Shown in pieces: positions 33,129 through 57,491 of a DNA stretch of 64,000 nucleotides. The stretch comes from Microbacterium sp. SORGH_AS_1204. Lineage in GTDB: Bacteria; Actinomycetota; Actinomycetes; Actinomycetales; Microbacteriaceae. Location of the stretch: assembly GCF_030818935.1 (NCBI RefSeq), contig NZ_JAUTBD010000001.1:3410001-3474000 (forward strand). The letters run 5' to 3'. Every line of letters starts with the position of its first letter. Position 1 is the stretch's first letter. The position numbers and the translations under genes are program-made. The notes under the pieces are model-generated. The model did not search any database, was not told the DNA's origin, and saw nothing but the letters and a program-made list of their open reading frames with translations.

Positions 33129-34193
33129 TCAGGAGGGAGGACGCTCGTCCTCCACCACCGACTGCACGCTGTCGGTGGCCGGGGTCTTGTCGCCGGGGCG
33201 CACCTCGTCGGCGGCGATCGCGATGTCGATCGCGGCGTCCTCCAGCGCTTCGGCCACGACGTCGCTCACGTCGCCGCGATCGTCGGCGTCGGTCGTCGCG
33301 TCAGCGGCGATGGCGTCAGGGGTGGTCGCGCCGGCGGCCGTGTCACGGACGGTCACTTCATCGGCGGGACGCGAGGGTTCGAGGCCTTCGGTCACGCGGT
33401 CTGCGGCGGCGATGTCCGCCTCGGCGTCGGCGGCGGCCACGCGCTCCCGGGCGGCCTGCACGGTCTGTTCGACGGCGGCTGCAGCTCCCACGGCGACATC
33501 CTTCGTCTTCGACACGGCGACGTCCACGGTCTCCGACGCGCTGGCGGCGAGGTCCTTCGACCGGGCCACCGCGTCATCCACGGCGACCGACGCGCGGGCC
33601 TTCAGGTCGTCGACCGTCTCGGAGGCCCGAGCCACGGCGGCATCCGTCCGATCCTTCACGTCACCAGCCGCTTCGCGAGCGCGGAGCGCGGCGGCATCCG
33701 CCCGGTCCTTGACGTCGGCGGCAACCACCGAGGCGCGGTCGGCGGCGTCCTTCGCCCGGTCCTTGACGTCGTCGGCGACCTCCGCCGCGCGCGCCGCCAC
33801 GGCATCCGCCCTCTGCTCGGCCTCGGCGACGACGTCGCGGTCGAACGGTCCGAAGACCCCGGTCACGACGACGTTGACGTCGATCGTCCCGCGCCCGAGC
33901 GGCTCGAGAGCCGACCGCACCGCGGCCCGTACGGCGTCGGACACCTCGTGCAGCTTGTGCGGGTAGTCCACGACGAGCGAGACGGTCGCGGTGACCGAGT
34001 CGGCGCGGTCGGTGTCGATCTTCACGCCGGGTGCGGTGCTCGCGAGTCCCACGCGCTCCCGGACGGCGTCCGAGGCGCGACCGAGCAGGCTGCCGAGCGC
34101 GTGCACGCCCGGAACCGACCCCGCCGCGGTCGCGGCGAGGGTCGCCGCGGCGTCGAGATCGGGCGGCTCGATGGTGGCATCGATGGTGGTCAT
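33129..34193 (-). CDS. Asp23/Gls24 family protein with repetitive helical tail
   Basis: The 354-residue protein has two parts. Residues 20-125 form an Asp23/Gls24 domain (VPGVHALGSLLGRASDAVRER, PGVKIDTDRADSVTATVSLVV, DVNVVVTGVFGPF). Residues 130-260 are a long run of amphipathic repeats of about 11 residues built on VKDRADAAALRAREA and VDDLKARASVAVDDA, like apolipoprotein or LEA-type helices. The last 90 residues are acidic and low-complexity. GAGGAGA precedes the ATG at 34193. It is the last gene of the six-gene envelope-stress operon. Asp23 proteins gather at the membrane through AmaP; the tail may bind lipid or protect the envelope under stress (inference). Confidence 0.82.
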   Translation of the reverse strand: MTTIDATIEPPDLDAAATLAATAAGSVPGVHALGSLLGRASDAVRERVGLASTAPGVKIDTDRADSVTATVSLVVDYPHKLHEVSDAVRAAVRSALEPLGRGTIDVNVVVTGVFGPFDRDVVAEAEQRADAVAARAAEVADDVKDRAKDAADRASVVAADVKDRADAAALRAREAAGDVKDRTDAAVARASETVDDLKARASVAVDDAVARSKDLAASASETVDVAVSKTKDVAVGAAAAVEQTVQAARERVAAADAEADIAAADRVTEGLEPSRPADEVTVRDTAAGATTPDAIAADATTDADDRGDVSDVVAEALEDAAIDIAIAADEVRPGDKTPATDSVQSVVEDERPPS

Positions 34194-46381: not shown

Positions 46382-46427
46382 CGCCGCGCGGCGTCGGGCC
46401 CGCCCCGACGCCGCCGGCCCCGCCCGG

Positions 46428-46521
46428 GGTCACGGCCCGCCCGGGGTCACGGACCCGCCCAGGGTCACGGCCCCGCACAGGTCACGGCCCGGCCCAGGTC
46501 ACGGTCCGGCCCAGGTCACGG
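46428..46521. repeat. 17-bp tandem repeats downstream of purL
   Basis: The word GGTCACGG recurs six times, at 46428, 46445, 46463, 46480, 46497 and 46514 (periods 17, 18, 17, 17, 17), in a consensus like CCCAGGTCACGGCC. It lies between purL and a small membrane-protein gene. Confidence 0.75.
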
Positions 46522-46570
46522 CCCCCTCCGCCCGAGCATCAGCCCCGACACCCCCGAGAGGAGACGTGCG

Positions 46571-46904: not shown

Positions 46905-47020
46905 CCCGCCCGAGGCGACGACACCGGCACGCCCGCCCTGCTGCGGATTCCGGCCTGACGCCCCCGCCCGAGGCGACGACACCGGCACGCCCGCCCTGCT
47001 GCGGATTTCGGCCTGACGCC
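46905..47020. repeat. 58-bp tandem direct repeat, two copies
   Basis: Copy 1 (46905-46962) and copy 2 (46963-47020) differ at only a few positions. Each contains GAGGCGACGACACCGG and ends near GGCCTGACGCC. Confidence 0.8.
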
Positions 47021-47044
47021 CAGCACCGTGACGGAGCCCCGACG

Positions 47045-53561: not shown

Positions 53562-54130
53562 TGTGTACCTCGGCGGCCTTCGGGTGGCCGCGGCGGTCAC
53601 GCCCGGGTGGCAGCCGTCGGTGCTCTCCGGGGGTGGAGCACGCGCGCCGGATGTCGGATCCGTCGCCTCGGCCGCCGACCGTACGCTCGCGGCGCCTCCT
53701 CCCCCGAGGCGGCACCGGCGACCGCGGACTGGTCGGGTGGGCGGCCCGGAAACGGGCCTCGACCAAGGTTTCACGCAATGGATACGCTGGCAAATCGCCG
53801 ATCGCCTTGCGATTCAGGATGCCGTGTGTCACGCGCGGGCGCGTGCCCTGGGTTGTCGGCGGGTTCCCGACGGGGCCCGGCGCCGGTCGGTCCGGGCGTG
53901 TCGAGACGGCGCGAACGGGTCCCAGCGCGCGGCGATGGACGGGTGCGTCCCGGCCCGCGGCGGCGGCGCGGGCGCCTCCCCGGCCCGCGGCGACGGCGCG
54001 GACGCGCCGTGGCCCGCGACGGCCGTGCGAACGCGTCCCCGGCCCACGGCGGCGGCGCGGAAGCGCCGTGGCCCACGGCGGCCGTGCGGACGCGCCCCGG
54101 CCCGCGGCGACGGACGGGGGCGTCGCGGTC
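53562..54130. other. Long region upstream of the betaine operon
   Basis: No gene seen in 569 bp. From 53562 to about 53700 it is GC-rich and could be a structured 5' leader. The only AT-rich island, about 53760-53830, is the likeliest promoter site and has arms AATCGC and GCGATT. From about 53920 it is a tandem repeat. Confidence 0.5.
53952..54127. repeat. 29-30 bp tandem repeats, six copies
   Basis: GGCCCGCGG or GGCCCACGG recurs at 53952, 53982, 54011, 54041, 54070 and 54099 (periods 30, 29, 30, 29, 29). Alternate copies end in TCCCC or CGTGG. A degenerate copy precedes at about 53918. Confidence 0.75.
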
Positions 54131-54516: not shown

Positions 54517-55641
54517 ATGAGCCGATCGACGCGTCCCGACCCCACCGCCGCGGGAGCCGAGGCCGGCGCCCCGACCTCGCGCGACAGGCCCGTGTGGACG
54601 GGGATCTCTCGTCCGTACGCGGCGGGGTTCTTCCTCACGCTCGGCGGCCTCACGGCCGTGCTCCTGGCCTTCGCCCTGTCGAACCTGTCGACGGTGCTCA
54701 TCTACATCGCGATCGCGTTGTTCGTCGCCCTCGCCCTCGACCCGCTCGTGCGGTTCCTGGTGCGCCGCGGCCTGTCGCGCGCGTGGTCGATCGTCATCGT
54801 CTTCGGCGGTCTCGCGCTGATCCTCGCCGGGTCGCTCTGGTTGCTCATACCGCCCGTCGTGCGGCAGGTGGAGCAGTTCGTCGGCGACATCCCCGCGTTC
54901 GTGAACGACCTCATCGACAGCGACGCCGTGCGGTGGGTCGAGGCGAACTTCGGCGACAGTCTCGGCGACGTGCTCAAAGAGGTGCAGAACTTCGCCACGA
55001 ACCCGTCCAACATCGCGGCCATCGGCGGTGGCCTCCTGCAGGTGGGCATCAGCATCGGGACTTTCGTCTCGGGCGCCATCATCGTGCTCGTGTTGAGCCT
55101 GTACTTCCTGGCATCCCTCCCGCGGATGAAGAACAGTCTCGTACGCCTCACCCCGGCTCGCAGTCGCGCGACCGTCGCCGACATGACGGGGCAGATCACC
55201 GACTCCGTCGGCGGCTACCTCGCCGGAATGGTCGTGCTCGCCCTGTTCAACGCGGTGTTCGCCTTCATCGTTCTCACGATCGTGCAGCAGCCGTTCGCGG
55301 CGCTGCTGGCCGCGATGGCCTTCGGTATTACGCTGATCCCTCTCGTCGGGTCGGTGCTGTTCTGGGCGACCGCGACCGTCTTCACGCTCATCGTCAGCCC
55401 CACCGCGGGATTGATCTTCGCCATCGCCTACCTCGTTTACATGCAGCTGGAGGCATATCTGCTGACACCGCGTGTGATGAACCGCACGATCTCCATTCCC
55501 GGCGCGCTCGTCGTGATCGGCGCGCTCGTCGGCGGCACCCTGCTCGGTCTTCTCGGCGCGCTCGTCGCGATTCCCGTCACGGCATCCGTTCTGCTGATCA
55601 TCAAGCAGATCGTGATCCCGCGACAGGATGCCAAGAAGTAG
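54517..55641 (+). CDS. AI-2E family transporter (PerM-like)
   Basis: A 374-residue membrane protein with about eight helices. Family features are the double helix GGLTAVLLAFALSNLSTVLIYI, the soluble stretch QVEQFVGDIPAFVNDLID, and the C-terminal region FGITLIPLVGSVLFW followed by YLVYMQLEAYLLTPRVMNRTI and GALVVIGALVGGTLLGLLGALVAIP. Members include TqsA and sodium/proton antiporters, so the solute cannot be inferred. It stands alone, with a leaderless start. Confidence 0.87.
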   Translation: MSRSTRPDPTAAGAEAGAPTSRDRPVWTGISRPYAAGFFLTLGGLTAVLLAFALSNLSTVLIYIAIALFVALALDPLVRFLVRRGLSRAWSIVIVFGGLALILAGSLWLLIPPVVRQVEQFVGDIPAFVNDLIDSDAVRWVEANFGDSLGDVLKEVQNFATNPSNIAAIGGGLLQVGISIGTFVSGAIIVLVLSLYFLASLPRMKNSLVRLTPARSRATVADMTGQITDSVGGYLAGMVVLALFNAVFAFIVLTIVQQPFAALLAAMAFGITLIPLVGSVLFWATATVFTLIVSPTAGLIFAIAYLVYMQLEAYLLTPRVMNRTISIPGALVVIGALVGGTLLGLLGALVAIPVTASVLLIIKQIVIPRQDAKK

Positions 55642-55789
55642 GCGACCGCCTTCCGCGGCGCTGAGGCGCGGGGGCGCGGGGCGCTGGGGCTTGGGGGCGC
55701 GGTGCGCCGGGGCCGGCCGCCGGGGCGCTGTGGCACGGCACCGCCCCCGATGGCATCTCGGCACCGTGCCGCCGTTCGGAACTCCAACC

Positions 55790-56268
55790 GTGCACGGGCA
55801 CCACCGCCCCGGGCACCACCGCACGGCCGCACCCCACCCGTGCACAACGGCAGAGACCCCACACGACACACCGCCACGACGGCATCCGCACCGGCGTGTC
55901 CCCCACAACCCCCGCAGCCGTGCACGGGCACCACCGCCGCAGGCAACCACCGCACGGCCGCACCCCACCCGTGCACAACGGCAGAGACCCCGCACGACAC
56001 ACCGCCACGACGGCATCCGCACCGGCGTGTCCCCCACAACCCCCGCAGCCGTGCACGGGCACCGGCGTGTCCCCCACAACCCCCGCAGCCGTGCACGGGC
56101 ACCACCGCCCCGGGCACCACCGCACGGCCGCACCCCACCCGTGCACAACGGCAGAGACCCCGCACGACACACCGCCACGACGGCGACCGCACCGGCGTGT
56201 CCCCCACAACCCCCGCAGCCGTGCACAGGCACCACCGCAGCAGGCACCACCGCACGGCCGCAGCGCCG
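55790..56268. repeat. 130-bp VNTR-like tandem repeat
   Basis: Units begin GTGCACGGGCACC at 55790, 55920, 56051 (a 40-bp partial unit), 56091 and, degenerate, GTGCACAGGC at 56221. Full units are 130, 131 and 130 bp and almost identical. Each full unit has an inner dyad: GTGCACGGG at its start pairs with CCCGTGCAC about 47 bp later. Confidence 0.9.
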
Positions 56269-56285
56269 GATTCGCCTCGAATCCG
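56267..56285. terminator. Hairpin next to the lactonase stop
   Basis: Arms CGGATTCG (56267-56274) and CGAATCCG (56278-56285) with loop CCT, 6 bp after the lactonase stop on the minus strand. Probably a terminator for both convergent genes. Confidence 0.6.
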
Positions 56286-56291
56286 AACGGT

Positions 56292-57491
56292 TCAGCGCAT
56301 CGGCAGCAGCCGCGTCGGCGACGGCGACGCGGTGCGGTGACGCACTCGCCCCGGCACCCCGGTGCGCGCGTCGAGGGGCAGCGACACGATCTCGTGCGCC
56401 AGCTGCCCGGCGACGAGCAGCGTGTCGTCGACGACGACGTGGTGGCGCGGCCAGTGCGTGCCCGTTTCGGCCAACGCGAGCAGCTGCAGCGTCTCGCCCG
56501 CCCCGCGCACCGACAGCACGCCGACGGTGTCGCTACCGCGCACGCCGGCGTACAGCGTGGAGCCGTCGCGGCTCGCGCAGAGTTCGGCGGCGGTGTCGGT
56601 GTCGAGGGTGCCCAGGAGCGGTTGCCCGGAGCGCACGTGCCAGCGTCCCTCGCGATCGGGGGCGAGCACGAAGACCTCGCGGCTCAGCTCGGTCACGACG
56701 TAGAGGTGGCCAGACGGATGCCAGATTCCGTGTCGTGGGCCGCTGCCCTTCGGCAGCACGACATCCTGGACCGCCCGCAGGCCGTCGCCCGTCGCGCGCC
56801 AGATGCGGACGAGGTCGAGACCCATGTCGGTGGTGGCGACGAGCCCGCCCGGGAGGAAGATGCCCTGGTGCGCGCGCGAGACGCGGTCACCGGCCGCGGC
56901 CTCCTCCGACTCGGCATCGGTCTCGGGCAGCTCGTCGTAAACGGGGATGAGGTGCGCGTACTCCTCACCCGCCGCCTCGCGCAGCGCGCGGGCCGCGGCG
57001 GCGAGGTCGGGGACGACCGCGCCCGACACCCGCGCCCCGGTCGACACGGTCCCCTCGGTGGGTGCGGCGCCGTAGGGGTCGACGGCGTCGGCGGCGACCA
57101 CCGGACGAGACGGGCGGCCCGTGGCATCCAGGTCCATCCGCACGACGCGGCCGTCGCCCCAGCAGCTGGCGATGAGGAACGACGCGTCAGGCGAGACGGC
57201 GATGTGGCACACGGCCGCGCCCGCCTCGACGGGACGACCCATCGGGGTCAGGCGTGTCTCGGACGCGCGACGGTAGGCCTGCACGGTGCCGTCGAACTCG
57301 AGCGCGGCATAGAGCACGTCGAGTGTCGGGTGCGCGGCGATCCACGACGGCGAGCCGGGCGCGGCGACGGCCGTGGCGACCATCCCGAGGGGGCCACCGC
57401 CGCTCGGCGCATCGGCTTCACTGGCCTGCAGGATGCCGATCCCCTCCGCCGACCCGTTGTCGGGGGCGTAGGCGCCGACCCAGAACCGCAT
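56292..57491 (-). CDS. Lactonase family protein (6-phosphogluconolactonase type)
   Basis: A 399-residue seven-bladed beta-propeller lactonase: RFWVGAYAPDNGSAEGI, HPTLDVLYAALEFDGTVQAY, VCHIAVSPDASFLIASCWGDG, HQGIFLPGGLVATTDMGLDLVRI and GPRHGIWHPSGHLYVVTELS. The family is typified by YbhE, which hydrolyses 6-phosphogluconolactone, but others act on different lactones. Start ATG at 57491 shares a base with the purA stop (TGATG), so the two form an operon and translation is coupled. The functional link to purine synthesis is not obvious. Confidence 0.85.
   Translation of the reverse strand: MRFWVGAYAPDNGSAEGIGILQASEADAPSGGGPLGMVATAVAAPGSPSWIAAHPTLDVLYAALEFDGTVQAYRRASETRLTPMGRPVEAGAAVCHIAVSPDASFLIASCWGDGRVVRMDLDATGRPSRPVVAADAVDPYGAAPTEGTVSTGARVSGAVVPDLAAAARALREAAGEEYAHLIPVYDELPETDAESEEAAAGDRVSRAHQGIFLPGGLVATTDMGLDLVRIWRATGDGLRAVQDVVLPKGSGPRHGIWHPSGHLYVVTELSREVFVLAPDREGRWHVRSGQPLLGTLDTDTAAELCASRDGSTLYAGVRGSDTVGVLSVRGAGETLQLLALAETGTHWPRHHVVVDDTLLVAGQLAHEIVSLPLDARTGVPGRVRHRTASPSPTRLLPMR

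Follow-up and report, generated by a model that had tools for sequence, protein, structure and literature searches.

During the analysis of a tandem array lying between an AI-2E family transporter gene and a lactonase gene of the soil bacterium Microbacterium sp. SORGH_AS_1204 (positions refer to the window, that is, the whole 64,000-nucleotide stretch that was analyzed), we found that each full unit of the array consists of one 86-bp nested palindrome and a locus-specific spacer. With a probability of about 0.6, we regard the array as a non-autonomous palindromic selfish element that has been tandemly amplified and is paired with an AbiEi-DUF559 nuclease gene elsewhere in the chromosome. Counted in support of this selfish-element reading are the dispersed family of copies, their near-fixed length, the element-free junction in relatives, the covarying outer arms, the bracketing of the nuclease genes by elements, and the likeness of the arms. 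The pairing of element and gene is itself well supported; cutting of DNA and mobilization of the element by the AbiEi-DUF559 protein are what we infer. The features of the locus are as follows.

54517–55641, plus strand: AI-2E family transporter gene (PF01594, E = 1.2e-52), left of the convergent gap.
55840–55925, unstranded: 86-bp nested palindromic element, copy 1 (outer arm 15, N9, inner arm 10, N18, mirrored).
55926–55970, unstranded: locus-specific spacer repeating with the element (also before copy 1, at 56097–56140, and, degenerate, at 56227–56262).
55971–56056, unstranded: 86-bp nested palindromic element, copy 2.
56063–56096, unstranded: right half of the element (inner arm, spacer, outer arm), within the 40-bp partial unit 56059–56098.
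56141–56226, unstranded: 86-bp nested palindromic element, copy 3.
56292–57491, minus strand: lactonase (7-bladed beta-propeller) gene (PF10282, E = 1.2e-50), right of the convergent gap; its start is the choice of a simple gene caller, and its stop is at 56292.

The array extends over about 55788–56262 and is made up of three full units that are nearly identical, a partial one of 40 bp, and, up to about 56262, a degenerate tail. Tandem Repeats Finder gave overlapping rows at 55788–56063 (period 131, score 522), 56019–56103 (period 40, score 170), and 55888–56233 (period 170, score 650), and with scores of 522 and 650 against a threshold of 50 the array is certainly a repeat; the copy spacing in the repeat search was 131, 40, and 130 bp. 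Thus, the three full units, 40-bp partial unit, and degenerate unit of the preliminary description are borne out by both searches, its partial unit (56051–56090) being 56059–56098 in another phase, and the gap is indeed convergent, with the transporter gene on the plus strand ending at 55641 and the lactonase gene on the minus strand having its stop at 56292. The 9-bp dyad that had been described for each full unit reflects a symmetry that is present in every one of them, but it is only part of the 86-bp nested palindrome. The two outer arms of each of copies 1–3 match at 10 of 15 positions and the two inner arms at 8 of 10, and the window locus thus represents a somewhat decayed version of the element. 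Other GC-rich tandem repeats occur in the window at 53905–54128, 46415–46525, 46905–47021, and 33635–33811; none of them matches the element, and the only window sites in the search of the own genome are the three in the array.

Comparison of the array DNA with its own genome gave 18 matches, 17 of them elsewhere. Among the loci compared, the spacer varies from locus to locus and the 86-bp nested palindrome is common to all. The element is laid out as an outer arm of 15 bp, N9, an inner arm of 10 bp, and N18, followed by the mirrored order, and its Microbacterium consensus is GTGCACAACGGCGGR-N9-CGACACGCCG-N18 plus the mirror image. A pattern search over 21 stretches (two of them without copies, and one region of genome G020 being present on two contigs) yielded 57 copies, 51 of which have a length of 86, and in a profile made with one copy per locus (18 loci) conservation is sharp from the first to the last base, plus about one base on each side. 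When the gap was left free (42 to 72), 18 copies in 15 stretches were obtained from 84,980 species represented by one genome each, all in Microbacterium, with lengths of 86 bp (15 copies) or 87 bp (3 copies). The covariance model R1 found about 53 sites in 23 clusters in the source genome (G000), with matches on both strands; one site is a weak 68-bp match (G000:C1:1618582–1618649). As for other lengths, copies of 77 bp (G226) and 68 bp (G000) correspond to 86 minus 9 and minus 18, and an 82-bp form, with spacers shorter on both sides, is seen in G450 and G502. The outer arm resembles a DnaA box. A longer transposon with the same ends, as would accompany a MITE of a DDE insertion sequence, was looked for through exact half-sites: all 22 in G000 are halves of R1 elements already listed, so that G000 holds no longer element with exact ends. 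Phage or plasmid origin was rejected, as the array DNA gave no phage match, the gene gave no phage or plasmid match, and the exact element pattern had no match in viral contigs.

When the first 15 candidates per genome were scored, R1 matches were present in at least 176 of 295 Microbacterium genomes and in at least 77 of 299 genomes of the family, covering at least 38 of 85 genera. In the other genera, the inner arms largely stay CGACACGCCG / CGGCGTGTCG, and the outer arms are quite different in sequence yet self-complementary. Indeed, in the outer stem of 32 copies of exactly 86 bp, 127 cells were changed on both sides, compared with 40 ± 5.2 after shuffling (none of 500 shuffles as high). 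The inner arm showed no covariation across genera, nor did the arms in Microbacterium alone (29 copies), the latter being expected if the outer arm there is one fixed lineage-specific sequence. Because R1 includes pairing, its matches in other genera favor paired arms, and a set selected by the inner arms only was made as a check (27 of 30 loci scored, L197–L223, a few of them also R1 sites). In these 27 loci, mirrored positions 10–23 outside the inner arms pair in 56–89% of cases versus 30–48% in offset controls, with pairing at about background from position 24. Spacer positions 1–9 also pair more often (52–74%, control 28–40%), and the symmetry is thus not confined to the arms. The inner-arm pattern itself occurs in 50 of 299 genomes and its reversed form in 1 of 299.

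This spread bears on the array as an ordinary minisatellite, produced by a chance slippage duplication with no special element in it. Periods and spacers are locus-specific at the arrays, and the partial unit fits slippage; however, the same 86-bp element recurs in 23 clusters with unrelated spacers and in at least 176 of 295 genomes of the genus. The dispersed copies refute slippage as a full account, which makes this explanation very improbable, and it survives only for the change in copy number. The array had earlier been taken for a variable-number tandem repeat (VNTR), and that interpretation stands to the extent that the duplication is local and tandem, the spacer being locus-specific and repeating with the element at the arrays read, but the locus is one site of a dispersed palindrome family rather than a repeat standing alone.

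The 23 clusters in G000 lie in convergent gaps (12), same-direction gaps (9, of which 6 are nearer a gene end and 3 nearer a gene start), a divergent gap (1), and the inside of a gene (1). These orientations come from a simple codon-usage gene caller, and their baseline is the 64-kb window only, which has 10 convergent, 35 same-direction, and 10 divergent junctions (6, 11, and 8, respectively, when only gaps from 100 bp upward are counted). The intragenic cluster is an array of four copies with a period of 162, equal to 54 codons, that forms an open frame in a TetR-type gene (L017:8512–10059, at about 1.485 Mb in G000), where it lies within a stretch of about 196 residues between TetR_N (residues 12–58) and TetR_C_24 (residues 276–360). 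At the AI-2E/lactonase junction, the gap of the source genome is 653 bp and holds the array. Among 18 relatives, the two genes adjoin in nine, separated by 2–170 bp that lack the arms; in one they are 685 bp apart, the intervening sequence being different and likewise without the arms; and eight have no lactonase gene within the examined stretch, including G007 and G006, the closest by transporter protein. As the junction is kept without the element in nine relatives, the array was either gained here or lost in the others. In one relative (G012, L096), the 170-bp gap after the AI-2E gene contains another stretch that is self-complementary by eye and has other arms.

The elements might instead be RNA hairpins, terminators, or mRNA stabilizers at gene ends, kept for that role, as their self-complementary arms covary across genera, 12 of the 23 clusters are convergent, and most of the same-direction ones are nearer the gene end. 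The preliminary description had suggested an influence on termination between the two genes, for which we obtained no backing: a simple scan of 55500–56500 for intrinsic terminators (a hairpin followed by a T run) returned 0 sites, although so many clusters are in convergent gaps. Moreover, nine element loci have no match in Rfam, R1 matches on both strands, the element is absent from the same junction in nine relatives, and a hairpin role leaves the matching repeats around DUF559 genes, described below, unexplained. We therefore consider such a role rather improbable. A reading in terms of RNA only was rejected on the lack of arm covariation in Microbacterium, the lack of inner-arm covariation across genera, and the Rfam result.

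Because REPIN-like repeats call for a RAYT partner, a Y1 transposase was sought. The architecture is the one described for REPINs in the cited part of PMC3116915, namely, doublets in inverted orientation, a cognate gene adjoining repeats of its own kind, and tandem clusters together with their flanks; however, Y1_Tnp (PF01797) was detected in 0 of 44 genomes, whereas the control search was positive in 5 of the 14 named genomes. It is therefore barely credible that a Y1 tyrosine transposase moves these elements as in a true REPIN/RAYT system, and descent from RAYT/REPIN was rejected because no such transposase was found in the 44 genomes. Clustering of the genes adjoining the elements revealed, alongside commoner families, one present in 13 loci (eight genomes; several loci overlap). 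Its proteins are about 280–300 residues long and combine a winged helix like that of AbiEi with a nuclease domain of the DUF559 / REase_MTES_1575 type. In four genera, the AbiEi-DUF559 gene is located between two elements about 1.1 kb apart, and in the source chromosome the gene paired with the element is at G000:C1:798798–799619.

A search for DUF559 in 34 genomes gave 131 places, with at least one in 31 genomes and eight in the source genome. Of these, 112 were scored with the family-wide model R2: every one of the 87 in the 20 element-rich genomes, and 25 of the 44 found elsewhere. Elements bracket 17 of the 112 genes from both sides; 16 of these genes belong to 15 of the element-rich genomes and the remaining one (L332) to a comparison genome, and two of the 17 brackets (L307 and L332) rest on weak matches. 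Three further genes have an element on one side only (L259, L265, and L274, the last at a contig start). Five of the 20 element-rich genomes have no gene bracketed on both sides (G333, G402, G502, G558, and G597), and in G597 one gene lies at a contig start with an element on its sequenced side. The downstream element sometimes overlaps the 3' end of the bracketed gene, and no second open reading frame is present between the brackets in the units listed. When bracketing is mapped onto a tree of the 112 DUF559 proteins, it takes 8 changes, fewer than in any of 500 shuffles (mean 16.2). All but one of the nine bracketed Microbacterium genes fall into a single clade, supported at 100/100. Members of this clade are found at two or more places: in six genomes a PucR-type and/or helix-turn-helix gene adjoins, and in G215 and G108 an aminotransferase-type gene does, the neighbors having been named by eye.

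In their outer arms, the bracketing elements resemble the dispersed copies in the same genome. When the flank arms and dispersed arms of eight gene-genome pairs were permuted, the true pairing alone was this good among 40,320 permutations, the dispersed arms being a chosen subset in eight groups with Microbacterium pooled. For G450 this comparison used the one-sided L259 and left out the two-sided L229, whose arm is mismatched, and copies L198, L200, and L201 were not used. The bracketed L229 has an arm unlike the dispersed arms of its genome, and in G475 its own dispersed arm is no closer than two others (distance 3 each). G450 and G108 each have two DUF559 genes with differently armed elements. 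At the level of genomes, a close relative of the gene (E up to 3e-70, a cut-off set after the list had been seen) is found in 74 of 295 Microbacterium genomes, and the element is present in at least 72 of these 74 versus at least 104 of the other 221, in a co-occurrence test uncorrected for phylogeny; 10 or more element matches are found in at least 67 of 74 and at least 31 of 221, respectively. The presence of element matches in those 104 or more genomes that have no close gene relative counts against the selfish-element reading.

The main rival to that reading is an operator role: the AbiEi-type winged helix would bind the palindromes and repress its own gene, with the dispersed copies serving as a regulon or as decoys. 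Binding of AbiEi antitoxins to inverted repeats in the promoter of their own gene is described in PMC7319586; the bracketed units do have one element upstream of the gene, and 9 of the 23 clusters are in same-direction gaps, 3 of them nearer a gene start than a gene end. An operator, however, would not readily account for the second copy after the gene, which sometimes overlaps its 3' end, and 12 of the 23 clusters are convergent and only 1 divergent. Arrays, including the one in frame within the TetR-type gene, are unlike operators, and the window site is without the element in nine relatives. For these reasons we regard an operator role as unlikely.

In its DUF559 domain, the protein has the conserved E-x-D, H, and D positions of an EDxHD/Vsr-like nuclease. 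PF04480 was above the cut-off in seven of seven proteins; AbiEi_4 was above it in one and below it in four others, the remaining two proteins being shortened at the N end, and PADLOC AbiEi matches were obtained in five of five proteins (E up to 0.01). Profile matches include 3hrl (5.8e-9) and, weakly, 3r3p, 'Mobile intron protein' (0.0041), which we take to be I-Bth0305I. An alignment of 17 proteins (16 bracketed plus L203) shows no variation at E176, D203, E213, H220, or D229 and hardly any at D215. The AlphaFold model of the protein was too poor to be used (mean pLDDT 44). The MTES_1575 domain has a Vsr-family restriction-endonuclease fold, as given in the consulted portion of PMC3710099, and EDxHD homing endonucleases dimerize on a target of nearly 60 bp, as stated in the corresponding portion of PMC3943268; a dimer on a target of that length would suit a long dyad element. 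DUF559 in a Vsr-like Caulobacter protein is thought to act in mismatch repair, according to PMC12907096, which makes repair an alternative role.

Matching repeats flank DUF559 genes more generally. When the upstream and downstream flanks were scored by their best 20-bp ungapped match, direct or inverted, a match of at least 18/20 was obtained for 75 of 112 DUF559 genes versus 5 of 150 controls, which were genes of comparable length; among the five, L185 is a DUF559 gene by accident, and without it the control is 4 of 149. Direct and inverted matches were both at least 17 in 60 of 112 DUF559 genes versus 2 of 150 controls, one of which is again L185, and flanks taken from two different genomes reached 18 in 1 of 148 pairs. 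The score of at least 18 was found for 17 of 25 DUF559 genes in element-free genomes versus 58 of 87 in element-rich ones, and the signal is hence not due to the one element. In the 14 flank pairs read, the repeats are mostly palindromes that differ from gene to gene. Within one clade of eight DUF559 genes, six of the eight own comparisons scored 18–20 and nearly all cross-comparisons were at background; in the clade around L239, related species have one palindrome in common. At one site, four related genes with the same neighbors by eye (L291, L301, L316, and L320) have two kinds of outer arm across four species, with the upstream and downstream copies agreeing at 19–20/20 within species and at 15–16 between kinds, which indicates that both copies changed together and the inner part was kept. 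Outside Microbacteriaceae, in further families belonging to its class, the signal is weaker (at least 18 in 8 of 27 scored genes, 2 of 29 being at contig edges). Judged from these flanking sequences, the pairing of gene and palindrome looks general among DUF559 genes.

Several further repeats were seen in the course of these comparisons. At L024:4166–4492 (about 344 kb in G000), a different tandem palindrome family has arms like GTGTCCCACTT / AGTGGGACA. In another species, a DUF559 gene (L314) has two occurrences of AGTGGGACA or its complement in each flank, which suggests another gene-palindrome pair. A 112-bp tandem repeat at L021:5499–5775 has a short palindrome, CCCTTCGACAGGCTCAGGGA, as its core, and none of the 112 DUF559 genes was found to have this core in both flanks. 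Upstream of the DUF559 gene at L262 (about 2.703 Mb in G000) about 30 consecutive G residues occur, which may be a feature of the assembly or of phase variation.

Under the selfish-element reading, a protein dimer would bind the two mirrored halves of the element and would nick or cut the element or its hairpin. Repair or copying may then spread elements to new sites, keep the two gene-flanking copies alike, and seed tandem arrays, in which unequal recombination or slippage would subsequently alter the copy number locally. For a broader proposal we see even odds: AbiEi-DUF559 genes would form a large Actinobacteria class of selfish nuclease genes, each cutting and copying its own palindrome as a dimer, with gene and palindrome coevolving, both brackets being rewritten together at a change of specificity, and non-autonomous copies spreading. 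The winged helix would act on the outer arm and the nuclease near the inner arm, and the whole would mean that the REPIN/RAYT lifestyle had been invented independently, starting from a repair nuclease that resembles homing endonucleases. No report of such gene-palindrome pairing was recognized in the part of the literature searched, and the set of palindromes and DUF559 genes is apparently large and undescribed. In Pfam, DUF559 is still a domain of unknown function, and genes with palindromes of their own would suggest a function for this large orphan gene family. Such pairing would also account for a class of intergenic repeats in these bacteria and provide a second, unrelated example of small palindromes living in bacterial chromosomes; the natural gene-palindrome pairs with different arms make the spread of such repeats directly testable.

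The system shares features with several known ones. Rickettsia palindromic elements, as presented in the available part of PMC10969869, are small palindromes of about 150 bp in frame inside protein genes, a position shared by the array in the TetR-type gene; the present element differs in being 86 bp long and in having a nuclease gene, a partner that goes unmentioned in that part of the source. With the antitoxins of AbiE type IV toxin-antitoxin systems (PMC7319586, in the part cited), the protein shares inverted repeats beside the gene and an N-terminal DNA-binding domain that is probably of the AbiEi type, but it has a C-terminal nuclease domain and its repeats are on both sides and dispersed. 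AbiE systems have an adjacent DUF1814 toxin gene, and no second gene lies between the brackets in the units listed. Invariant E, D, H, and D positions and the weak 3r3p match link it to EDxHD homing endonucleases such as I-Bth0305I, as far as these are covered by the part of PMC3943268 consulted. Unlike them, as there described, it has an AbiEi-like winged helix and is not seen in an intron or intein, its gene is bracketed by palindromes, and dispersed copies exist without the gene.

The closest likeness in organization is to the REPINs and RAYTs of Pseudomonas and others, in which, according to the cited part of PMC3116915, tandem clusters take in flanking DNA and a gene adjoins repeats of its own type. 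As in that system, so far as it is described there, the repeats are dispersed, intergenic, palindromic, and non-autonomous, they form tandem clusters with flanking DNA, the cognate gene stands beside its own repeat type, and a genome may contain several differing gene-repeat pairs; like a REPIN, the element is an inverted doublet with fixed spacing (86 bp in 51 of 57 copies, and 86–87 bp in 18 of 18 with a free gap). In contrast, the enzyme is an AbiEi-HTH/DUF559 nuclease and not a Y1 tyrosine transposase, and the element is 86 bp long, its inner arm being nearly constant and its outer arm specific to the lineage; inspection by eye revealed neither a GTAG nor a CGTC tag in it. The enzyme being unrelated, the system works like REPIN/RAYT without belonging to it, and we set it apart as a new kind because neither enzyme nor element is in the REPIN/RAYT family; if all gene-paired palindromic repeats were counted as one kind, it would be a variant of that kind. 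Collectively, we read it, by analogy, as a REPIN/RAYT-like selfish system built on a different enzyme.
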